64,000 nt of DNA, taken from the NCBI RefSeq assembly GCF_947496775.1, contig NZ_CANMDU010000004.1, positions 1-64,000 on the forward strand. The letters run 5' to 3'. Below are positions 6,172 to 41,662 of the stretch, piece by piece. The notes under the pieces are model-generated. The model ran no database searches. It was not told the DNA's origin and was given only the letters and a program-made list of their open reading frames with translations. A program made the translations under genes and the position numbers. How positions within the stretch are numbered: the stretch's first letter is position 1; every line of letters begins with the position of its first letter. This DNA comes from an uncultured Maribacter sp. (GTDB lineage Bacteria > Bacteroidota > Bacteroidia > Flavobacteriales > Flavobacteriaceae).

Positions 6172-7506
6172 TTACCTATTAAATGTTAGTCTTTTTGCAT
6201 TGCGTTTTTCAGAAAAATTTCCATTTTCATAAGCCAAATGACCGTTAACGAAAGTATGTGTTACTCTACTATCAAAAGTATCTCCCTGGAAAGGAGACCA
6301 ACCACACATATAAGCAATATTCTCTTTAGTTACTTTCCAAGTATCATTAGTATTTACTACAACTAAATCTGCATAATACCCCTCTCTTACAAATCCTCGT
6401 TTTTCAATTTCGAATAATATTGCTGGATTATGACACATTTTTTCAGCAATCTTTTCTAAAGAAATAACCCCTTCTTTATACTTTTGCAACAATGCTGGTA
6501 AAGCATGTTGCACTAATGGCCCGCCAGATGGGGCTTTAGTATATACATTATCTTTTTCTTCAAAGGTATGTGGAGCGTGGTCCGTAGCAATTACATCAAT
6601 GCGATTATCTAATAGTGCTTTCCACAAAGCTTCTCTATCTGTAGCTTTTTTAACGGCGGGGTTCCATTTTATTAATGTTCCTTTAGTCTGGTAGTCTTCT
6701 TCAGCAAACCAAAGGTGGTGCACACAAACCTCAGCAGTAATTTTTTTCTGTTCTAATGGAATATCGTTTCGAAATAAATCCATTTCCTTTGCTGTAGAAA
6801 CATGAAAAACATGAAACCTTGCTCCTGTTTTCTTTGCCAGAGCAATTGCTTTAGAGGAAGATATATAACATGCTTCTTCACTGCGTATCAGTGGGTGATT
6901 CTTTATAGGAATATCATCTCCAAATTCTTCTTTATATTTTGCTAAATTTTCGCGTATGGTTTGTTCATCCTCACAATGCGCAGAAATTACCATTTCTGTA
7001 TTATTAAAAATACTTTCTATTACTTGCTCATTGTCAACAAGCATATTTCCTGTAGAGGAGCCTAAAAACAGTTTTACACCGGAACATGCATTTTTATCTA
7101 ACTTCTTTATTTCTTCTAGATTATCATTAGTTCCTCCAAACAAAAAAGAATAGTTAGCATAGGAACTATCTTTTGCCATTGCAAATTTAGCTTCTAGTTT
7201 TTCTATAGTAGTAGTTTGCGGATTGGTATTAGGCTGTTCCATATAGGTAGTAATTCCGCCTGCAACAGCAGCTCTACTCTCCGAGGCAATATTTCCTTTA
7301 TGGGTTAATCCTGGTTCTCTAAAATGTACTTGATCGTCTATAACTCCTGGAAAAACATAATTTCCGTTCACGTCTATAACTTTAGCTGTAGCATCGCTAA
7401 GGTCTTTTCCAATCTTTACTATAATATCGTCTTGTATAAGAATATCGTTTTCTACAATAGTATTCTCATTTACAATTTTGGCATTCTTTACTAATACTTT
7501 ACCCAT
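6172..7506 (-). CDS. pyrC: Dihydroorotase (type I-like amidohydrolase)
   Basis: 444 residues. It would catalyse ring closure of carbamoyl-aspartate to dihydroorotate in pyrimidine synthesis. Visible signatures: FREPGLTHKG after the first metal motif (60-71), PNTNP (92-96), a lysine in SGVKLFLGSS (Lys145) at the carboxylated-lysine position, AHCED (His177), HVFHVS, and the ATDHAPH block. The first metal motif reads D-D-Q-V-H rather than the usual D-x-H-x-H, so one expected His ligand (residue 59) is Gln. That could be a lineage variation or could reduce activity. The gene starts 2 bp after the upstream mannosyltransferase gene, suggesting one operon with it and the DUF4296 gene. Confidence 0.88.
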   Translation of the reverse strand: MGKVLVKNAKIVNENTIVENDILIQDDIIVKIGKDLSDATAKVIDVNGNYVFPGVIDDQVHFREPGLTHKGNIASESRAAVAGGITTYMEQPNTNPQTTTIEKLEAKFAMAKDSSYANYSFLFGGTNDNLEEIKKLDKNACSGVKLFLGSSTGNMLVDNEQVIESIFNNTEMVISAHCEDEQTIRENLAKYKEEFGDDIPIKNHPLIRSEEACYISSSKAIALAKKTGARFHVFHVSTAKEMDLFRNDIPLEQKKITAEVCVHHLWFAEEDYQTKGTLIKWNPAVKKATDREALWKALLDNRIDVIATDHAPHTFEEKDNVYTKAPSGGPLVQHALPALLQKYKEGVISLEKIAEKMCHNPAILFEIEKRGFVREGYYADLVVVNTNDTWKVTKENIAYMCGWSPFQGDTFDSRVTHTFVNGHLAYENGNFSEKRNAKRLTFNR

Positions 7507-7508
7507 AC

Positions 7509-8237
7509 TTAAAACTTATTTTTTTGAAAAAGGCTTCTAAATTTCATTGCTAAAACACCAAAAACTGCTTCTTTTATTATAGAACCACTCATTTTAGACT
7601 TTCCTTTTACTCTATCTCTAAAAACAATAGACACTTCTTCTATACTATATTTTTGCAGATATGCTCTAAACTTCATCTCTATTTGAAAAGCATATCCTAT
7701 AAACCGAACAGAGTCTAATCTTATATTTTCTAAAACATATCTCCTATAACAAACAAAACCGGCAGTAGGATCATGTACTCGCATTCCTGTAATCATTTTT
7801 ACATAAAAAGACGCACCATAAGATAAAAGAACTCTGTATAATGGCCAGTCTACCACATTAACTCCTTTTGTATAACGAGAACCTACAGAAACGTCGGCTC
7901 CATTATAACACGCCTCATACAGTCTTACTAAATCCGTTGGTGTATGCGAAAAATCGGCATCCATCTCAAAAATATAATCATACTTTTTAGCAATTGCCCA
8001 TTTAAAACCGTGAATATATGCTGTTCCAAGACCAGATTTTTCTTCTCTTACTTCAATAAAAAGTTTATCTACAAAAACCTTTTGTAAAGCATATACCGCT
8101 TGTGCTGTTCCATCGGGAGAATTGTCATCTACTATTAAAACATGAAAATCTTTTTCTAGAGCAAATACAGCTTGTATTATGGCCTCTATATTTTCAATCT
8201 CGTTAAAAGTAGGGATTATGACTAAACGATCTGACAT
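7509..8237 (-). CDS. Polyprenol-phosphate mannosyltransferase-like GT2 glycosyltransferase
   Basis: 242 residues, a single GT-A domain with no trailing membrane segment. Motifs: IPTFNEIENI at the N-terminus, the UDP/GDP-binding VDDNSPDGTA (36-45), the DxD-like EMDADFSH and the acceptor-side RDRVKGKSKMSG. These are characteristic of dolichol- or polyprenol-phosphate mannose synthases, which transfer mannose (or another sugar) from a nucleotide donor to a lipid carrier on the inner face of the membrane. A divergent membrane glycosyltransferase at 8371, a type that uses lipid-linked sugars, is a natural partner. Sugar identity is not proven. Confidence 0.88.
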   Translation of the reverse strand: MSDRLVIIPTFNEIENIEAIIQAVFALEKDFHVLIVDDNSPDGTAQAVYALQKVFVDKLFIEVREEKSGLGTAYIHGFKWAIAKKYDYIFEMDADFSHTPTDLVRLYEACYNGADVSVGSRYTKGVNVVDWPLYRVLLSYGASFYVKMITGMRVHDPTAGFVCYRRYVLENIRLDSVRFIGYAFQIEMKFRAYLQKYSIEEVSIVFRDRVKGKSKMSGSIIKEAVFGVLAMKFRSLFQKNKF

Positions 8238-8370
8238 GGAACTCTTTTGAATTTTAACAAAAATAGTGTTTTAAAATCTGTAGAAAAATGACATTTTAGT
8301 ATTTATGCTTTTTTTAAAAAGAAAGTTACGAAGTAGAATTCGTAATTTTGGCATCAATTAAATCTTAAAA

Positions 8371-10038
8371 ATGTTTAGAAAACTCCCCAAATTACTTGTT
8401 ATATTACTTGGAAGTCTTCTCGCTATTAATGTACTACAAGCCTACTTTACAGAGTTAATCTATGATGAGGCGTATTATTGGTATTATGCCCAAAATATAT
8501 CTTGGGGTTATTTTGACCACCCTCCTATGGTGGCACTTCTTGTTAAAATTAGTAGCTTTTTCTTCGATGGAGAATTAGGCGTTCGGTTTATGAGCTGTAT
8601 CCTATCTATAGGTACTTTTATCATTTTATGGCTATTAATAGATAACCCTAAGAAGAAAGATTATATAGCTCCTTTCTTTGTGTTTGGTTTTTCTATGACC
8701 CTAATAAATGCCTACGGTTTTTTTACTTTGCCAGATACTCCGTTAGTATTTTTTACGTGTGCTTTTTTATTATGCTATAAGAACTTTATTAAAAATCCGA
8801 CTTACGGTCTTTCCATTATTTTAGGGTTACTAATAGCGGCCTTAATGTATAGCAAATACCACGCATTTTTGGTTATTTTCTTTGTTATTCTTTCCAATAT
8901 AAAATTAGCTGTCAACAAATATGCATGGATAGCAGTTGTAGTCGCTTTGCTATGCTACACTCCACATTTTATATGGCTTTATGACCATGATTTTGTTTCT
9001 ATAAAATATCATATCTCTGAACGACCTAATGGTGCCTACCAATTTGAAAAATATACTCTTGGCTTTTTCGTAAACTTATTGGCCATATTAGGTTTTACTT
9101 TTCCATGGGTTTATAAAGCTTTATATAAAACTAAGGCCACCGACCTTTTCACCAAAGCCTTATTGTATTTAACATATGGCTTTATTTTGTTTTTCTTTAT
9201 TTCTAGTTTTAACAGAAGAATACAAACGCAATGGGTGATAATTATTTCTATTCCGTTATTTATTATGGCTTATAATTATATGCTTAACAATGAAAATGCT
9301 AGAAAATGGATTTATAGAATGGCCATAATAAATTGCATTATTCTTGCAGTATTACGTGTAGGACTCATTTACAAACCTCTTTTCCCAATTTATTATGAAA
9401 CGCATGGAAATAAATTATGGGTTAATAACTTAAAATCGCAAATAGGAGATATCCCCGTAGTTTTTGAAAATTCGTATAGATACGCTCCCATGTATGCCTT
9501 TTATACTGGAAACAAATCTTTTTCATTAAATAATATATTCTATAGGCAAAACCAATATACCATAGATTCTACAGAGTCTTCTGTACAAAATCAAAAAGTC
9601 CTTTACGCTTCTAAATACTTTAAAAAAGGAGAATTGAAATATAATCGTATAAATGGTACTTCTGTATATGGTAATTATATAGATAATTTTAAATCCTATA
9701 GAAAACTTAGATGTTCTATTAAAGAGGATATTGATAGTTTAAACACAAATACACAATTAACATTACAAGTATATAACCCCTATAAAGAAGATGTTTCCTT
9801 AAGAGAGTTAAAATTTGCTATAGGTTATCTAGATCCTTACAAAAAAGTAAAAGAGGTAATACCTATATTACCAATGGCAGTAAATAAAGAATCCTTATTT
9901 TTAAAGACTAAAGACACAACTAATTTTACATTTAAATTGCCAGTTCCTAAAATGGATAAACCTAGTTATTTAAAAATTAGCATTTCGGAAAACGGACTTA
10001 TTTATGGAATTAACAGTACTAATATGAAATTAAATTAA
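8371..10038 (+). CDS. Membrane glycosyltransferase (GT39/ArnT-PMT-like)
   Basis: 555 residues. About ten hydrophobic helices in the first 345 residues, then a periplasmic soluble domain of roughly 200 residues. The first external loop has YDEAYYWYYAQNISWGYFDHPPMVALL, matching the acidic catalytic loop of lipid-linked sugar transferases such as ArnT and protein mannosyltransferases (Asp/Glu then DHPP). It probably moves a sugar from polyprenyl phosphate to an envelope acceptor. The divergent neighbour encodes a polyprenol-phosphate mannose synthase-like enzyme that could supply the donor. The stop codon overlaps the next start (TAATG), so translation is probably coupled to the DUF4271 gene. 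Confidence 0.85.
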   Translation: MFRKLPKLLVILLGSLLAINVLQAYFTELIYDEAYYWYYAQNISWGYFDHPPMVALLVKISSFFFDGELGVRFMSCILSIGTFIILWLLIDNPKKKDYIAPFFVFGFSMTLINAYGFFTLPDTPLVFFTCAFLLCYKNFIKNPTYGLSIILGLLIAALMYSKYHAFLVIFFVILSNIKLAVNKYAWIAVVVALLCYTPHFIWLYDHDFVSIKYHISERPNGAYQFEKYTLGFFVNLLAILGFTFPWVYKALYKTKATDLFTKALLYLTYGFILFFFISSFNRRIQTQWVIIISIPLFIMAYNYMLNNENARKWIYRMAIINCIILAVLRVGLIYKPLFPIYYETHGNKLWVNNLKSQIGDIPVVFENSYRYAPMYAFYTGNKSFSLNNIFYRQNQYTIDSTESSVQNQKVLYASKYFKKGELKYNRINGTSVYGNYIDNFKSYRKLRCSIKEDIDSLNTNTQLTLQVYNPYKEDVSLRELKFAIGYLDPYKKVKEVIPILPMAVNKESLFLKTKDTTNFTFKLPVPKMDKPSYLKISISENGLIYGINSTNMKLN

Positions 10039-34971: not shown

Positions 34972-37113
34972 TTAAAAATTAATAGTAGCTCCTAATAAAA
35001 AGTTAGTTCCTGCTTGCGGGTAGTAACCTAAAATTTCTTTAGAATTACCAGGTGTAGACCAATAATCTAAATATGTATAACCATTAGATTCATACTTTTC
35101 ATTTAATACATTATTAATTAAGCCAGACAAAACAATGGACTTAACTATTGCTTTTGGTTTAATTTCGTAGGTAATGTTTATATCATTTACAAAATAAGCA
35201 TCTAATTTAGAGGTTTCAGTATCTGTATTACTTAAATATTGTTCCCCAACATATTTAGAAAGTAAGGAAATGGAAAAATTCTCTATAGGTTGATATTGAA
35301 TAACATTCCCGGCTACTAAAGTTGGAGAAAATGAAATATTCGTGTCTCCAATATTTTTAATTTCTCCATCTCTATCCAAAACAAAGTCTTTAATTTTATT
35401 AGTACTTATTGCCAAATTTGGTCTTATCATTAATGCATTAGACACTCTAAAATTTGCATCAATCTCTAAACCAGCCCTATAACTACTATCTACATTAGCT
35501 CTTTTATATTCGCCAACATCATCTATATCTCCTGTTAAAACTAGTTGATTTTTATAACCCATGTAATAACCATTAACATTTAAACTCGTGTTTTCTGATA
35601 AAAATCTCCAACCAAATTCAAAATCATTTAACCTTTCTGATTTTGGAAAAACATCTCCTTTAAAATCATCTCTATTAGGTTCTCTTTGCGCCACAGCAAA
35701 AGAACTATACAAACTATTATTTTTATTTATTTTATAAGTAAAACCAGCTTTGGGGTTAAAAAAAGCATAGGACTCATTTATAACTAGCGGAACTCTATTA
35801 GAGGCTATTCCTGCAGTTTTGTAATTTACAAATCGGACTTGTAAATCTGCATATGCAATAAATTTTGGGCTAATATTATATGTAGCTTTAGAAAAGAAAC
35901 TTAAATCTGTCTTTTTTCCTGTACCATCGTAATAATGATCTCTTATAGAAGAGCCTCCTGCATTTTGCGCCCAAATTATCTCACCAAAATGATTAGAATC
36001 ATACAAACTATATGAGCCTCCCAAAATTAAATTAATCTTTTCATCCTTAAAATTAGCATTCCCGTTTATAACGTAAAAATCAGGAGTTAACCAGCGTCTT
36101 CTAATTAAATCAGTTGTTTTTATAGTATCCGAAGCTACAATTATAGGATCAAAATCATAGTCTTCGAAATCCTCTTCCTCTTTATATTGCTCAAAATACC
36201 CTCTCCCTTTAGTATAGTTTAATCCTAAGTTAGAAGACCATTTTGCATTGTATTTTTGATTCCAATGAAATTGAAAATGATCTTGTTTAAAATTATCTAC
36301 TTCATTTTCATAAGTATAAAAATTCGATGTCCTATCAGTTTTTAAAGTTTCAGCATCTACACCATACCAAGATTGATATGTTACTTCGTGCCCTCCAAAA
36401 GATAATGCCTTTATACGCGTATTATCATCCACATAAGCAGCTTGTAAAAAATAAGATTTTAAATCTGATGATGCTCTGTCCACGTAACCATCCGAGGATA
36501 TTTTTGATAATCTACCAGATATTTCAATATGATTATTTAACAATCCTGTACTAAACTTAACACCATTTTTAAATGTGTTAAAACTTCCTATAGAAGAAGA
36601 TATTTGCCCATATGCATCTTCCGAAACTGCATCTGTTAAAATATTTAAACTAGCACCAAAAGCTCCAGAACCATTTGTGGAAGTACCTACTCCACGTTGT
36701 AATTGCAAACTTTCTATTGAAGATGCAAAATCTGGCATGTTCACCCAAAAAGTACCTTGAGATTCTGCATCATTATACGGTATACCATTTATAGTTACAT
36801 TTACTCTAGTAGCATCGCTACCCCTAACTCTAATACCGGTATAACCAATACCAGCACCTGCATCTGATGTAGTCACTACAGATGGTAAAAAATTCATTAA
36901 AATTGGAATGTCTTGCCCTAAATTTCTAGGCTTAAGGTCTTCTTTTGTTAAATTAGAAAAGGTTACTGGAGACTCTTTGGTTACTCTCACGGCAGAAACA
37001 AATACCTCATCGAGGATTACTTTTTTACCTTCTAAAGAATCTGTTTGTTGTTTTTGGGCAGATACACTCATAACTAGAGTAAAGACTGCCAATGTTGTGA
37101 AAATAGTTTTCAT
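34972..37113 (-). CDS. TonB-dependent receptor, probably for thiamine
   Basis: 713 residues. Signal peptide to about residue 19, then a short TonB-box region, the plug domain (ILMNFLPSVVTT, RGSDATRVNVTINGIPYNDAESQGTFWVNMPDFASSIESLQLQRGVGTSTNGSGAFGASLNIL) and a 22-strand barrel-type C-terminal part ending in LGATINF. It has no CarboxypepD_reg domain before the plug. A TPP riboswitch lies 100 bp upstream on the same strand, so expression should fall when thiamine diphosphate is plentiful. That points to import of thiamine or a precursor across the outer membrane. The substrate is inferred from the regulation only. Confidence 0.9.
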   Translation of the reverse strand: MKTIFTTLAVFTLVMSVSAQKQQTDSLEGKKVILDEVFVSAVRVTKESPVTFSNLTKEDLKPRNLGQDIPILMNFLPSVVTTSDAGAGIGYTGIRVRGSDATRVNVTINGIPYNDAESQGTFWVNMPDFASSIESLQLQRGVGTSTNGSGAFGASLNILTDAVSEDAYGQISSSIGSFNTFKNGVKFSTGLLNNHIEISGRLSKISSDGYVDRASSDLKSYFLQAAYVDDNTRIKALSFGGHEVTYQSWYGVDAETLKTDRTSNFYTYENEVDNFKQDHFQFHWNQKYNAKWSSNLGLNYTKGRGYFEQYKEEEDFEDYDFDPIIVASDTIKTTDLIRRRWLTPDFYVINGNANFKDEKINLILGGSYSLYDSNHFGEIIWAQNAGGSSIRDHYYDGTGKKTDLSFFSKATYNISPKFIAYADLQVRFVNYKTAGIASNRVPLVINESYAFFNPKAGFTYKINKNNSLYSSFAVAQREPNRDDFKGDVFPKSERLNDFEFGWRFLSENTSLNVNGYYMGYKNQLVLTGDIDDVGEYKRANVDSSYRAGLEIDANFRVSNALMIRPNLAISTNKIKDFVLDRDGEIKNIGDTNISFSPTLVAGNVIQYQPIENFSISLLSKYVGEQYLSNTDTETSKLDAYFVNDINITYEIKPKAIVKSIVLSGLINNVLNEKYESNGYTYLDYWSTPGNSKEILGYYPQAGTNFLLGATINF

Positions 37114-37215
37114 TCGTAATACATTCGTTACGAATAAAAGGGGCTATTATTCTAATTATTATTTGATTTTTTAGTACTATATGTACTTTTTGGATAAATC
37201 CAAAGTAATTGTCAA

Positions 37216-37290
37216 CGTATCCCTTGGCAGCATTATCTGCCCAGGTTCATTGGGTATAATCTCAGCCTACTATTGCAAGCACCCCTTTGA
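37216..37290 (-). ncRNA. TPP (thi-box) riboswitch
   Basis: Read on the minus strand it has the thi-box landmarks in order: GGGGTGC, GGCTGAGA, TATACCC, TGAACCTG, the pyrophosphate-arm AGATAATGCTGCC, and the closing AAGGGA. Spacings match the TPP aptamer. It precedes the TonB receptor by about 100 bp. No T-tailed terminator is seen between aptamer and start codon, so control of translation initiation is more likely than transcription termination. Confidence 0.93.
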
Positions 37291-37364
37291 GATTCGGCAA
37301 ATGTAATACTGCATTTTAATTTATCATAGAAAAAAGAAAAAAATAACTTTTTAAACAAAAAGCA

Positions 37365-37391
37365 TAAAAAAAGAGCTGCCGAAGCAGCCCT
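37365..37391 (-). terminator. UUCG-loop terminator of the small membrane-protein pair
   Basis: On the minus strand AGGGCTGC and GCAGCTCT pair around a TTCG tetraloop (cUUCGg type) and are followed by a T run. It lies between the 61-residue protein gene and the TPP riboswitch. Confidence 0.9.
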
Positions 37392-37503
37392 TAACAACCA
37401 ACCAAAAAATAAATATAATCTCTTAACTAACTCAATTTTTCAGAAATACTTATTTGTTCGTTTAGCCAAAAAAGGTGGGGGAACTACCTAAATTGTAACC
37501 TTA

Positions 37504-37689
37504 TTAATTGGTTGCATCCTTATAGTCAATGGTTAGTGTTTCTATAAAGGGTTGTTCTACATTATTATCATTTTCAATTTTTGCAAAATCTTTTTCTATT
37601 TGCCTAGAATTATTAAGTTCTATACTAGCTATGATCCATACGGATATTGTTAATACACCTAACACAACGGATTTAACAAACTCTTTCAT
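37504..37689 (-). CDS. Small membrane-anchored protein of unknown function
   Basis: 61 residues. One hydrophobic helix (about 8-24) after MKEFVKS, then an acidic 35-residue tail (EKDFAKIENDNNVEQ). It starts in a TAATG overlap with the 39-residue protein upstream and ends before a UUCG-loop terminator, so the two form a small transcription unit of their own. I do not recognise a family. Confidence 0.6.
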   Translation of the reverse strand: MKEFVKSVVLGVLTISVWIIASIELNNSRQIEKDFAKIENDNNVEQPFIETLTIDYKDATN

Positions 37690-37808
37690 TACTTATTGGA
37701 TTGTTCTTTATAAGAATCCTCATCTCTTTCCCAATAAATTGCGGCTATCACACAAAGGGAGGTAATAAATGTTACTGTTCCGACTATCGCAAATACTGTG
37801 GTTATCAT
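37689..37808 (-). CDS. 39-residue single-helix membrane protein
   Basis: A small ORF translating to MITTVFAIVGTVTFITSL..., with one hydrophobic helix (about 3-25) and a charged end (YWERDEDSYKEQSNK). The stop codon overlaps the start of the 61-residue gene (TAATG), and the pair lies between two terminators, which argues for a real operon. The size and plan recall tiny accessory subunits of transporters or respiratory enzymes, but nothing specific is shown. Confidence 0.6.
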   Translation of the reverse strand: MITTVFAIVGTVTFITSLCVIAAIYWERDEDSYKEQSNK

Positions 37809-37892
37809 TTTAGATTCGTTTAAAAAAGGTTTAAAACATTTTGCTCTACATATTATAAGACACAACCTTTTTTAAAAAGTCACTTTTTAAGC

Positions 37893-37927
37893 AAAAAAAA
37901 AAGCTACATATGCAGCTTTTTCTTTTT
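37893..37927 (-). terminator. Terminator of the DUF4301 gene
   Basis: On the minus strand AAAAGCTGCATATGTAGCTTTT, with one G-U pair, is followed by a run of Ts. Confidence 0.85.
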
Positions 37928-37942
37928 TAAATTTAAATTAAT

Positions 37943-39481
37943 TCATACTTGATGAGATGGTTTAAGCAAATCATTTACCGTCTTTACAGGATTAAAAGTT
38001 AACAAAGGAACCTCTACAAATATAGTATTCCAATAGGCCATAGCTCCATTCCATAATCCTGGTAATTCTAATGCTTTTAATTCTCTTCCTTCTTTTGTTT
38101 TTTCCGTAATGAAGCCTTGCTTAGAGTCTACATAATTTAATAAGTTATACTTTTCTCCTTTATAGTTTTTTACCCCACAAACCAAATCTACAGGATTAAA
38201 ATGTGTAGCATTCTTTAAAATGGAAGCTTGCTCCTCATTTTTCATATCTATTTGAGCAGATTCTACGATTTGTAAAGAAGTTCTTCCAGAAGTATCTCTA
38301 ATCCAAAAAGGACCACCACCAGGCTCTCCTTCATTTTTTACCATACCACATACTCGGATTGGTCTATTAATTTTATCTTTTAAAACCCTTATTTTTTCAT
38401 CAATTGTATAGGAATTAAAAGCATCTATGAATCTTACATTTAATCGTTCTTCTAAGAACTTCCTTATTTTTAAAATCTCTTCATCATTAGGCGAGCTGCT
38501 TTCCAAAACTTCGGCATATTTAAAAGCTTTCTGTTGTACTTGCAAAAGAACCCCTGTTAGTATTTTTTTACTATTGGCTAGTTCTTCTACATTTTTAGGC
38601 ACTACAACATTATCTATATTTTTTACAAAAATAACATCTGCCTGCTGTTCGTTAAGATTTTCAATCAAAGCACCATGCCCTCCTGGCCTAAATAATAAAG
38701 AACCATCGGAATTTCTAAATGGTTTGTTATCCATGTCTACAGCCAAAGTATCTGTTGCAGATTTTTGATAGGAGTAATCTATAACGTAACTTATCTTTGT
38801 AGCGGTTGTAACACGATCTTTTATAGATTCGTACTCCGACAAAAACATTTCTTTATGTTGTTCCGAAATTGTAAAATGCAATTTAGCATTACCATTTGTT
38901 TGCGCATACATGGCGCTCTCTTTTAAATGTTCCTCAAAAGGAGTCGCTGCAAAATCTGCGTAGTCATGAAAAGGAAGAAGTCCTTTTGGAAAAAAACCAT
39001 AATTAAATCCTTCTTCTGAAAGTAATTGTTGCACAAAAAGATACAGTTCTTCATTTTCATCGTTTGCCTTAGCCTTAATTGCATGTTTTACCTTTTCATA
39101 GAACGGAAATTTAGTAAGGCCATTTGCAAATACAAGCATATCTTTATCACCTGTTCTCTTAGCATAATCCTGAAAAGTTTCCTTTTTAAAGTTATAGGCA
39201 TCTAAAAAATTGAACAACACTTTAAACATTCTAGAAGCTGCACCCGAAGCAGGAACAAATTTTAATATAGCCAATTCTTTAGGAAAAGAATTATAGTATT
39301 TAATGAGTAAACTTTCATCTTTTTCAGAAAATTTATATATTCCATCTCCTACTACGGCAGCTTTTTCTAAATTTACAAATGGTATTCCTTCTTCAAAAGT
39401 TTCAATCTGATCTCTAACTTTCTCTTTTGAAATCCCCTTTTTTTCTAATTGAATTGCATCACTATCAGTTAGTTGCATCAT
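37943..39481 (-). CDS. DUF4301 family protein
   Basis: 512 residues, cytoplasmic. It carries the DUF4301 phrases PASGAASRMFKVLFNFLD, FFPKGLLPFHDYADFAATPFEEHL, LFRPGGHGALIENLN and CGMVKNEGEPGGGPFWIRD. The GGHGAL and NEGEPGGGPFW blocks resemble nucleotide- or phosphosugar-binding loops (nucleotidyltransferase-like), but no reaction is established. The start overlaps the stop of the NadR-like kinase (ATGA), so it belongs to the pnuC operon. Two adjacent ATG codons are possible starts. Confidence 0.85.
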   Translation of the reverse strand: MMQLTDSDAIQLEKKGISKEKVRDQIETFEEGIPFVNLEKAAVVGDGIYKFSEKDESLLIKYYNSFPKELAILKFVPASGAASRMFKVLFNFLDAYNFKKETFQDYAKRTGDKDMLVFANGLTKFPFYEKVKHAIKAKANDENEELYLFVQQLLSEEGFNYGFFPKGLLPFHDYADFAATPFEEHLKESAMYAQTNGNAKLHFTISEQHKEMFLSEYESIKDRVTTATKISYVIDYSYQKSATDTLAVDMDNKPFRNSDGSLLFRPGGHGALIENLNEQQADVIFVKNIDNVVVPKNVEELANSKKILTGVLLQVQQKAFKYAEVLESSSPNDEEILKIRKFLEERLNVRFIDAFNSYTIDEKIRVLKDKINRPIRVCGMVKNEGEPGGGPFWIRDTSGRTSLQIVESAQIDMKNEEQASILKNATHFNPVDLVCGVKNYKGEKYNLLNYVDSKQGFITEKTKEGRELKALELPGLWNGAMAYWNTIFVEVPLLTFNPVKTVNDLLKPSHQV

Positions 39482-40041
39482 TTTTTTAATAATTTATCAA
39501 TATGTTCTACTGCCTTAGAAAGACGCTCTTTTTTATTCCCCTTTAAAGTAATAAAATTTCGGTTATATTTTTCGAGAGTTTCTTTAAAATATAAAAACAT
39601 TTTCTCCCGCTCATTTGGCTTATCTCTAAGGTCATCTTTTTCCCAAGGAATATCTATATAGGTTAAAAAATAAATTGCGTAACTATTTTCGAGAGCATAT
39701 TTATCCAAAATAGGATCGCAATACCCTAAATAATATGCCTCCGAATACACCTTTGTTTCTAACAAATCTGTATCACATATTAAAACTTTAGATGCCTTTT
39801 TCGCTAACTTATTTTCTAATTTCATTTGCCCCTCTGCTATGGGTAGCAAATCTGAAGGTTCACATGTTTTGCGTTCTTCGTTCCATTTATGCTGTAAATA
39901 TTCGCGAGCGTATTCAGGAACCCAAACCGTATTATAATGCCTTGCCAACTGTTCCGACAAAGTTGTTTTACCAGTAGATTCTGGTCCAAATAAGACTATT
40001 TTTACAACTCCTGAAGGTTCTTGTTTAAACTTTTCTTCCAT
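39478..40041 (-). CDS. NadR-like ribosylnicotinamide kinase / AAA_28 ATPase
   Basis: 187 residues. Walker A GPESTGKTTLSEQLA near residues 19-33, VPEYAREYLQHKW after it, and a CDTDLLETKVYSEAYYLG segment are the marks of the kinase domain of NadR. The adenylyltransferase part of NadR is absent. NadR kinase phosphorylates nicotinamide riboside. The start lies inside the pnuC coding end (40-bp overlap), and the stop overlaps DUF4301. Next to a YkoF-like thiamine-binding protein, a vitamin other than nicotinamide riboside could be the substrate. Confidence 0.85.
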   Translation of the reverse strand: MEEKFKQEPSGVVKIVLFGPESTGKTTLSEQLARHYNTVWVPEYAREYLQHKWNEERKTCEPSDLLPIAEGQMKLENKLAKKASKVLICDTDLLETKVYSEAYYLGYCDPILDKYALENSYAIYFLTYIDIPWEKDDLRDKPNEREKMFLYFKETLEKYNRNFITLKGNKKERLSKAVEHIDKLLKK

Positions 40042-40637
40042 ACTATATAACCCTGAATTGCCAAAATTGTAAATATTAAATACTGTAAAGCGAACATTCC
40101 CCAGCCTCTATAAGCATATAATGGGACTGTTATAATATCTGCAAAAATCCATAAAACCCAGTTTTCTATTTTTTTATTCGCCATATACCACATTGCAGTA
40201 AAAAATACGCCTGAGGTAAAAATATCAATATAATTAGAGCTCTCAATAGTTGCTCCAAAACCTTTATAGACTGCGTAAGTAACAAGCATGGTTAAAACAA
40301 ACATACCTAAACCTATACTCTTTTCTTTATTCGTAGTTCTCGAAATTTTAACTACTTTTTCTTTACCATCTTTAATTCGCAACCAATTCCACCAACCATA
40401 AATACTCATTACAGAAAAGTAAAAATTCATCATCATGTCTCCAAAGAGTCCGTCTAAAAAGAATATATACGTAGTTAATATGGTGGCTACCAAACCTGTA
40501 GGGTATACCATAATATCCTCTTTTTTAGCATATATTACACTGGCTATTCCAAAAAAGAAAGCTGCTGCTTCTAAAATAATTAAGGATAAGGCCCTATCCT
40601 GATATGGACCTATAAAAAAATCAAAAATGTGGTTCAT
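40002..40637 (-). CDS. pnuC: PnuC-family vitamin transporter
   Basis: 211 residues with seven hydrophobic segments. PnuC-type marks are SIYGWWNWLRIKDG and the late ENWVLWIFADIITVPLYAYRGW. PnuC proteins are facilitators for nicotinamide riboside; close relatives (PnuT) carry thiamine, PnuX riboflavin. The upstream gene encodes a thiamine-binding YkoF-like protein with a 17-bp overlap, and a TPP-controlled TonB receptor lies 3 kb away, so thiamine is a real alternative. Sequence alone does not settle the substrate. Confidence 0.88.
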   Translation of the reverse strand: MNHIFDFFIGPYQDRALSLIILEAAAFFFGIASVIYAKKEDIMVYPTGLVATILTTYIFFLDGLFGDMMMNFYFSVMSIYGWWNWLRIKDGKEKVVKISRTTNKEKSIGLGMFVLTMLVTYAVYKGFGATIESSNYIDIFTSGVFFTAMWYMANKKIENWVLWIFADIITVPLYAYRGWGMFALQYLIFTILAIQGYIVWKKSLNKNLQEL

Positions 40638-40881
40638 ATTCGCTTCGGTCCGATTTTACTACTTTCATAAACAATAAACCTTTATCCATCATTCCAAAAG
40701 CCTCTTTTATATCCACAAACAATACTTTCATAACCGCATCATAAGGCCCATATATTTGAGTACTCAATGGGTTTTCTAGAACTGTAAGACTAGAACCTCT
40801 CAATTTTTTTATGAAATTAATTATATGTAATTCGTAATCTTCCTGTAAAGGAGAAAATGTTAATTCAACAGATATATTCAT
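40621..40881 (-). CDS. YkoF/thiamine-binding-like protein
   Basis: 86 residues from the ATG at 40881 (MNISVELTFSPL); a TTG at 40896 is also in frame. A single ferredoxin-like domain: NISVELTFSPLQEDYELHI, then NPLSTQIYGPYDAVMKVL and LFMKVVKSDR. The S-T-Q-x-x-G-x-Y-D-x-V phrase is the mark of the thiamine/hydroxymethylpyrimidine-binding family (YkoF, PF01910-like). It overlaps the pnuC start by 17 bp, tying a thiamine-binding protein to the transporter. It is cytoplasmic. Confidence 0.75.
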   Translation of the reverse strand: MNISVELTFSPLQEDYELHIINFIKKLRGSSLTVLENPLSTQIYGPYDAVMKVLFVDIKEAFGMMDKGLLFMKVVKSDRSEYEPHF

Positions 40882-40945
40882 AATTTTTTTATCCAATAAA
40901 AATACCCTTTCTTTATGAATAACTTTTAATGTCCGGGTATAAGTA

Positions 40946-41578
40946 TTATTTTTTCAACGCATACACACAGGTAAACTCCTCAAACTCAATAAATGTGATA
41001 TCATATTTTGTTCGGATTCCAGAATAAACAATTTCACCAGTTGTAATTCCGTCCATTAAATCAAAATTATTTATAATTATATGATTGATAAAACTTAACC
41101 CTTCTTGCTCATATATTTTATATAAAGATTCCTTACAACCCCATACTACAGTAAGTTTACGAATTAAAGCTTCTGTATTCGCAATGGTTTTATATTCTTC
41201 AATAGGTGTAAATTTATATGCTATTCTTAAAATTTTTTCTCTTTGTTTTTCTATATCTATTCCTACCTCTGTATCCTTACTTACAATAATTCCAGTAAAA
41301 TGATTAGAATGCGTTATAGAAATTTTGTTGCCGTCTTTTAAATGGGGCTTTCCCATCTTATCATAATACATATCCGTATCTAAATAACCCGCCTTAGCCA
41401 TTAAGTGCCTTATACTCAAGAAACCTTTTCTATGCATCTCCGATTTCATCCCTTTAAGTCTATTGGTACTTTTGTCTGTAAGCACGATGTTACTAGATAG
41501 TTCATCTTCAGACTCCTGAATCTTCCAAACATAAACTACGGTTGATGAATTTACTTCTAATGTCTTATAAAGAGGCAT
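40946..41578 (-). CDS. 4'-phosphopantetheinyl transferase superfamily protein
   Basis: 210 residues from the ATG at 41578 (MPLYKTLEVN); the longer in-frame start at 41623 reads into the promoter region of ahcY. Active-site motifs: GIDIE (106-110, magnesium-binding Asp108 and Glu110) and WGCKESLYK (Trp146, Lys149, Glu150). The enzyme transfers the phosphopantetheine arm from CoA to carrier-protein serines, in the Sfp-like two-lobed form. It lies 64 bp before the YkoF-like gene in the same direction and may be the first gene of that operon. Target carrier proteins are not visible here. Confidence 0.88.
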   Translation of the reverse strand: MPLYKTLEVNSSTVVYVWKIQESEDELSSNIVLTDKSTNRLKGMKSEMHRKGFLSIRHLMAKAGYLDTDMYYDKMGKPHLKDGNKISITHSNHFTGIIVSKDTEVGIDIEKQREKILRIAYKFTPIEEYKTIANTEALIRKLTVVWGCKESLYKIYEQEGLSFINHIIINNFDLMDGITTGEIVYSGIRTKYDITFIEFEEFTCVYALKK

Positions 41579-41598
41579 CCTTTTATTTAAGTTATTTG

Positions 41599-41606
41599 TA
41601 CATTTG
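41599..41606 (+). promoter_or_regulatory. -7 box (TACATTTG) of ahcY
   Basis: Exact TAnnTTTG in the gap between the divergent PPTase and ahcY genes, 57 bp before the ahcY ATG. Confidence 0.6.
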
Positions 41607-41662
41607 CGTTTGATAAACGGCATATTATATGCCTAGTAACGAAAGTAAAAAATAAAAAGAAT

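Follow-up and report, generated by a model that had tools for sequence, protein, structure and literature searches.

Which vitamin is handled by a PnuC-family permease and a NadR-type kinase that are encoded together upstream of a thiamine pyrophosphate (TPP) riboswitch and a TonB-dependent receptor? The question is raised by a locus within a 64,000-nucleotide stretch of DNA (hereafter, the window; contig NZ_CANMDU010000004.1) from an uncultured Maribacter sp., whose genome belongs to Flavobacteriaceae with Maribacter as the closest named relatives (kinase identity of 87%). An original prediction made from the window alone had suggested that the PnuC protein and the kinase handle thiamine, and this was found to be the most likely reading, as they lie beside a TPP-controlled receptor in three families, are accompanied by a gene of a thiamine-binding family, and show near-exclusion between the kinase and thiamine pyrophosphokinase (TPK). 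With a probability of roughly 0.7, we regard the kinase as a thiamine kinase operating in a flavobacterial version of the thiamine uptake system of Bacteroidota. Gene content, gene order, riboswitch, and distribution were read directly from the genomes, while we infer every substrate. The features of the locus are as follows.

40621..40881, minus strand: MTH1187/YkoF-superfamily protein, proposed cytosolic thiamine-binding protein (PF01910 via orthologues; predicted fold)
40002..40637, minus strand: PnuC-family permease, proposed inner-membrane thiamine facilitator, PnuT-like (PF04973, NMN_transporter, E 9e-50)
39478..40041, minus strand: stand-alone NadR-type (RNK-like) kinase, proposed thiamine kinase (AAA_28, E 9e-43; 187 aa)
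37943..39481, minus strand: DUF4301 protein, predicted nucleotidyltransferase with a UDP-sugar pyrophosphorylase fold (PF14134, E 3e-219; model pLDDT 91.6)
37371..37392, minus strand: intrinsic terminator between the upstream run and the riboswitch unit (9-bp stem, UUCG loop, T tail)
37298..37305, minus strand: TACATTTG, putative -7 promoter box of the Bacteroidota type (TAnnTTTG) for the riboswitch transcript
37203..37296, minus strand: TPP riboswitch aptamer (RF00059 positions 1-105, full length; 43.4 bits, E 4.2e-6)
34972..37113, minus strand: TonB-dependent receptor, predicted outer-membrane thiamine receptor of the OMthi type (plug and beta-barrel domains)

As proposed here, the TonB receptor would bring thiamine across the outer membrane, and TPP would shut off its synthesis via the riboswitch, an architecture that is directly visible and to which the receptor family lends the function. 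The PnuC-family permease would equilibrate thiamine over the inner membrane like PnuT, and the NadR-type kinase would convert thiamine into thiamine monophosphate (TMP) and so trap it, which is the new claim of this study. TMP would be converted into TPP by ThiL, the gene for which is present elsewhere in the genome, and the small YkoF-like protein would bind thiamine in the cytosol. The kinase, of a type borrowed from vitamin B3 metabolism, would replace TPK (Tnr3), the usual kinase for vitamin B1, which is absent from these genomes, and would thereby fill the missing step; with a NadR-type kinase in place of TPK, the formation of TPP would need the second step by ThiL. Enterobacteria salvage thiamine by a similar two-step logic, in which ThiK forms TMP from thiamine and ThiL forms TPP from TMP, whereas the kinase considered here is of the NadR/AAA_28 family. 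In a literature search with subscription papers outside its scope, no proposal of a NadR-like thiamine kinase was found.

The OMthi-PnuT-Tnr3 (TPK) system of Bacteroides likewise brings together a TPP riboswitch, a TonB receptor, a PnuC-family permease, and a kinase-type enzyme, and deletions of the receptor and the permease in suitable B. thetaiotaomicron backgrounds reduce growth when thiamine is low (PMC5613172). In the present locus, by contrast, a stand-alone NadR-type kinase takes the place of TPK, the permease and kinase genes lie upstream of the riboswitch rather than downstream of it, and YkoF-like and DUF4301 genes are added. As it has a replacement for TPK, the enzyme that defines this system, the locus counts as a variant of the system rather than as a strict member.

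Distribution of the kinase and thiamine pyrophosphokinase

The occurrence of the kinase and TPK was compared in a family sample of 60 genera, with one genome each, and in a separate phylum sample, in counts that ignore kinship. In the family, the stand-alone kinase was encoded in 57/60 genera, and TPK (PF04263) was absent from the window genome and from 57/60 genera; ThiL was found in all 60, with 59 scoring over the cut-off. The kinase-less genera were G002 and G014, both having TPK, and G018, which lacks PnuC as well. The kinase-by-TPK table among the PnuC-bearing genera (1/56/2/0) gave a Fisher p of 0.002 when kinship is ignored. Within the window's class, PnuC was found in 37/37 sampled genomes and the kinase in 33/37; TPK is lacking from 28 of these 33, and the four kinase-less genomes (G071, G075, G142, and G153) all have it. 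Across the phylum sample, the 62 PnuC-bearing genomes comprised 25 with the kinase only, 22 with TPK only, and 6 with NadR only, the others being 3 with the kinase and NadR, 5 with the kinase and TPK (all of genus g61), and 1 with none; the stand-alone kinase never occurred without PnuC (33/33). The PnuC genomes without the kinase lie in separate places (G002, G014, G142, f2, and G075), each having TPK. The original prediction was to fall if DUF4301 and the kinase co-occurred with NAD but not with thiamine genes; the outcome was the opposite.

In G014, which lacks the kinase, a riboswitch-receptor-PnuC-TPK operon in the Bacteroides arrangement was found, the TPK of which passes the thiamine diphosphokinase model. 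G142, also without the kinase, carries DUF4301 directly after PnuC, followed by the riboswitch and the receptor, with TPK encoded elsewhere. In G015, the kinase is kept and the usual PnuC is missing; a divergent PnuC is encoded after the riboswitch and the receptor. As for other families, kinase, riboswitch, and receptor follow in this order in G122 of f5, with no PnuC beside them, and PnuC, kinase, riboswitch, and receptor occur together in G130 of f9.

G001 possesses a receptor-PnuC-NadR operon, for nicotinamide riboside, in addition to the locus of the window type, and NadR accompanies the stand-alone kinase in G107, G130, and G203; the presence of two separate NadR-type kinases in one genome argues for different jobs. 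The NadR systems resemble the window locus in the homology of the kinase domain and in the pairing with a PnuC permease. The locus kinase, however, is devoid of the nicotinamide mononucleotide (NMN) adenylyltransferase domain, is linked to a TPP riboswitch and a thiamine receptor, and coexists with true NadR in several genomes. As a separate observation, a receptor-PnuC-NadR operon of the same family in L064 (7812-11426, minus strand) is likely a TonB-dependent uptake system for nicotinamide riboside (NR).

Locus architecture and the scope of TPP control

On the minus strand, the locus is transcribed in the order 4'-phosphopantetheinyl transferase (PPTase), MTH1187/YkoF-like protein, PnuC, NadR-type kinase, DUF4301, TPP riboswitch, and TonB receptor. 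The open frames of the run (40896-40621, 40637-40002, 40041-39478, and 39481-37943) overlap by exactly the 17, 40, and 4 bp first reported, as calculated from the coordinates, and the overlaps of 17 and 40 bp were found again in most relatives. PnuC adjoins the kinase in the named loci; the PnuC-kinase-DUF4301 order is conserved in 79/80 named Flavobacteriaceae loci, and in 69 the receptor comes next in the same orientation inside the retrieved region. While the run itself had been recognized correctly, its placement 3 kb away from the riboswitch and the receptor did not hold, as 647 bp separate its end from the riboswitch that follows, and both are encoded on one strand. In 30 genera where the kinase likewise precedes the riboswitch-receptor unit in the same orientation, the run's last gene ends no more than 650 bp from the aptamer, and in 14 more, no more than 7.5 kb from it.

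The window aptamer falls below the Rfam gathering score of RF00059 (54.3), and its core (GGGGUGC, GCUGAGAU, ACCC, and GAxC) is invariant across 38 aligned relatives; since the 38 relatives share this core, the aptamer is no chance match. The aptamers of the f5 and f9 relatives exceed the cut-off, and an RF00059 match was found in 56/60 genera. TAnnTTTG is the -7 element of Bacteroidota promoters, and such a box was located within ~10 bp of the aptamer start in 50/58 mapped loci in addition to the window. The terminator at 37392-37371 is the sole terminator-like site in 5 kb, for which shuffles average 2.7; a strict scan of the relatives' loci found no similar terminators, so that the window terminator may be lineage-specific.

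In line with the original prediction that the TPP riboswitch controls the TonB receptor, the aptamer lies ahead of the receptor gene, and a receptor homologue follows in 50/58 mapped riboswitch loci, the pairing including locus L059 of G014 (riboswitch-receptor-PnuC-TPK). The wider claim of TPP control over the whole region had to be given up, because the riboswitch comes after the run, has a promoter box to itself, and is preceded by a terminator. With the box at the aptamer and the terminator ahead, the aptamer would control the receptor alone. On these grounds, and as no riboswitch was found upstream of the PnuC-kinase operon at E up to 1 in 34.5-42.2 kb, TPP control of this operon was rejected. 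In the compact genomes G003, G047, and G058, the kinase ends just 24-34 bp before the aptamer, and read-through from the kinase into the riboswitch unit is possible there.

Elsewhere in the window genome, a thi operon, thiS-thiC-(TenI/ThiE-like)-thiD-thiE-thiG-thiH, is preceded by another TPP riboswitch, a strong one; thiS and thiG were assigned from position and sequence rather than from a profile over its cut-off, and the matches of ThiD and one ThiE-like protein were below the equivalog cut-offs. Because this riboswitch and operon are present together with the uptake locus, the organism should both make and import thiamine.

Substrate assignment and competing explanations

The kinase matches positions 164-320 of TIGR01526, a P-loop domain of the ribosylnicotinamide-kinase type (E 1.5e-30), and the nearest solved structures are NadR kinase domains. 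Against the full-length NadR model it scored 106.5 bits, below the cut-off of 341, and a domain search detected no NMN adenylyltransferase domain in its 187 aa. Walker A (GPESTGKT), E43, R46, D90, W133, D136, R139, and R145 are conserved, and since the P-loop, the DT motif, and the lid Asp/Arg residues are kept, the kinase should be catalytically active. Invariant positions including K52, Q72, E76, and Y121 are unlike NadR of G001, and the kinase sequence alone does not reveal the substrate. In L083 of G130 (7163-8608, minus strand), a NadR-type kinase is fused to an aldose-1-epimerase domain.

The window PnuC is related to the PnuC structure 4QTN and scores over the NCBIfam cut-off for the NR transporter. 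In the PnuC tree, one clade (98/94) contains the window-type proteins along with those linked to TPK or to riboswitches, and NadR-linked PnuC falls outside on a long branch. The small protein by itself gave a weak Thiamine_BP match (E 0.009, below the cut-off), and PF01910 was matched by 41/41 orthologues at E up to 0.1 (best 7e-9). The top 14 matches of its predicted fold were all structures of the UPF0045/YkoF family, including YkoF with thiamin, 1sbr. The orthologue profiles and the fold upheld its earlier designation as a YkoF-like thiamine-binding protein as to the family, and its start was corrected from the TTG at 40896 to the conserved ATG at 40881; we infer that it binds thiamine.

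Several points weigh against the assignment to thiamine. The kinase is closest in sequence to NR kinases, and the PnuC tree does not decide on specificity, as neither of the trees in which the window-type PnuC was forced with the NadR-linked or with the TPK-linked proteins was rejected (approximately unbiased test, p of 0.08 for both). The PnuC-kinase operon is itself not TPP-controlled, and no PnuC-kinase pair near the riboswitch was found outside f1, f5, and f9. Furthermore, the kinase and TPK occur together in five genomes of genus g61 and in G054, indicating that the replacement is not strict, and the anticorrelation between them is uncorrected for relatedness.

The alternative that survives best, which we consider unlikely, is the salvage of NR, in which PnuC would import NR, the kinase would form NMN, and DUF4301 would form NAD in the manner of the two halves of NadR, the thiamine receptor being a mere neighbour. 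It draws on the homology of the kinase to the NadR kinase domain, on the score of PnuC over the NR-transporter cut-off, on the location of the upstream operon outside TPP riboswitch control, and on the fusion of the kinase with the nucleotidyltransferase in g61, which resembles the logic of NadR and keeps this alternative alive. It would not, however, predict the near-exclusion of the kinase and TPK, and it fits poorly with the many genomes having the kinase without DUF4301, or DUF4301 without the kinase and PnuC, with the complete NadR-PnuC operons existing in the same family and the same genomes, and with a thiamine-binding-family protein as part of the operon.

Less probable still, the kinase may act on a thiamine precursor imported by PnuC, most likely hydroxyethylthiazole, as a ThiM analogue, or hydroxymethylpyrimidine. 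This would accord with the kinase being kept in g61 and G054 despite TPK, and with the presence in the window genome of ThiE and ThiD for precursor phosphates. Yet it leaves unexplained why the kinase-less, PnuC-bearing members of the class all have TPK, and the small genome G040 keeps the kinase while ThiC, ThiD, ThiE, ThiG, ThiH, and TPK were not found in the 63% of it that was scanned.

Mere synteny, with the PnuC-kinase operon and the receptor as long-standing neighbours that share no function, like the flanking PPTase and adenosylhomocysteinase (AHCY) genes, is very improbable: AHCY and PPTase are indeed retained around the block in most loci, and its two halves are separate transcription units, but G122 and G130 in other families keep kinase, riboswitch, and receptor with neither AHCY nor PPTase found beside them, the kinase approaches the aptamer to 24-34 bp in G003, G047, and G058, and the TPK swaps track the kinase.

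If the kinase is indeed a thiamine kinase, the salvage enzyme so far missing for much of a class would be encoded by a gene annotated as AAA domain or NadR-like, PnuC genes counted as NR transporters would be thiamine permeases, and auxotrophy predictions would change. Flavobacteria are abundant at sea. A recent survey described Bacteroidota populations without any currently described vitamin B1 synthesis or transport system (PMC10881298).

DUF4301 and neighbouring genes

Along its entire chain, the DUF4301 model best matched structures of UDP-glucose and UDP-GlcNAc pyrophosphorylases (Z 18-23), as in the comparison with 2i5k (Z 23.3, 325 aligned residues, root-mean-square deviation 3.4), with a similar predicted fold at an identity of ~11-19%. 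The score against the UDPGP profile PF01704 was 17.1 bits, below the cut-off of 22, and the motifs PASGAxxRM, GHG, and KNxDN, resembling pyrophosphorylase motifs, are strongly conserved. Judged from the model, DUF4301 should be, or derive from, a nucleotidyltransferase, and it gains a predicted fold and an enzyme class open to testing. A literature search on DUF4301 found nothing relevant.

DUF4301 is fused to the kinase in g61 (706 aa in L099; open frames of 733-800 aa in five genomes), and the two lie within one open frame in G005. It occurs without the kinase and PnuC in f14, f19, and f32, and apart from the kinase in f8, which suggests a more general enzyme that became attached to the operon. 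DUF4301 may be an enzyme of the route, as the original prediction held: it is fused to the kinase in g61 and stays beside PnuC where the kinase is gone, but many genomes encode it without the kinase or PnuC, and many encode the kinase without it. An obligate part in the route was unsupported, as DUF4301 is found on its own in f14, f19, and f32, and also next to unrelated genes. It is predicted to be a nucleotidyltransferase-fold enzyme tied to the kinase in Flavobacteriaceae, with no reaction assigned. That the kinase and DUF4301 work together as a two-step module, in the way of NadR but for thiamine, seems highly doubtful; such a module would first form TMP and then add a nucleotide to it, yielding a nucleotidylated thiamine (for example, the thiamine diphosphate of adenosine or uridine) for storage or signalling.

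In L098 (6924-10850, minus strand), DUF4301 lies beside 5-oxoprolinase-subunit-like genes, named by eye, with the PnuC-kinase pair on another contig. In the g61 loci L084 (6658-7395) and L099 (3443-4171), a PcrB-type (geranylgeranylglyceryl phosphate synthase-like) gene precedes PnuC in place of the YkoF-like gene, which was not found there.

Upstream of the run, the window contains a further gene, which is a conserved neighbour in most loci and is not thought to take part in the route.

40946..41623, minus strand: 4'-phosphopantetheinyl transferase (ACPS domain, E 6e-8)

The interval from DUF4301 to the terminator also holds two short open frames of ~38 and 61 codons (37505-37820, minus strand). 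In three genera (L061, 735-2492, minus strand; L062, 8688-10435, minus strand; L063, 8726-10482, plus strand), a TPP riboswitch stands directly before a divergent PnuC paralogue, the gene of which overlaps that of an acyl-CoA-dehydrogenase-like flavoprotein. This unit is probably another operon under TPP control, which would take up and oxidize a compound related to thiamine. In L022 (7221-8497, minus strand), a 2-oxoglutarate-Fe(II) oxygenase gene lies between the TPP-controlled receptor and a divergent PnuC.

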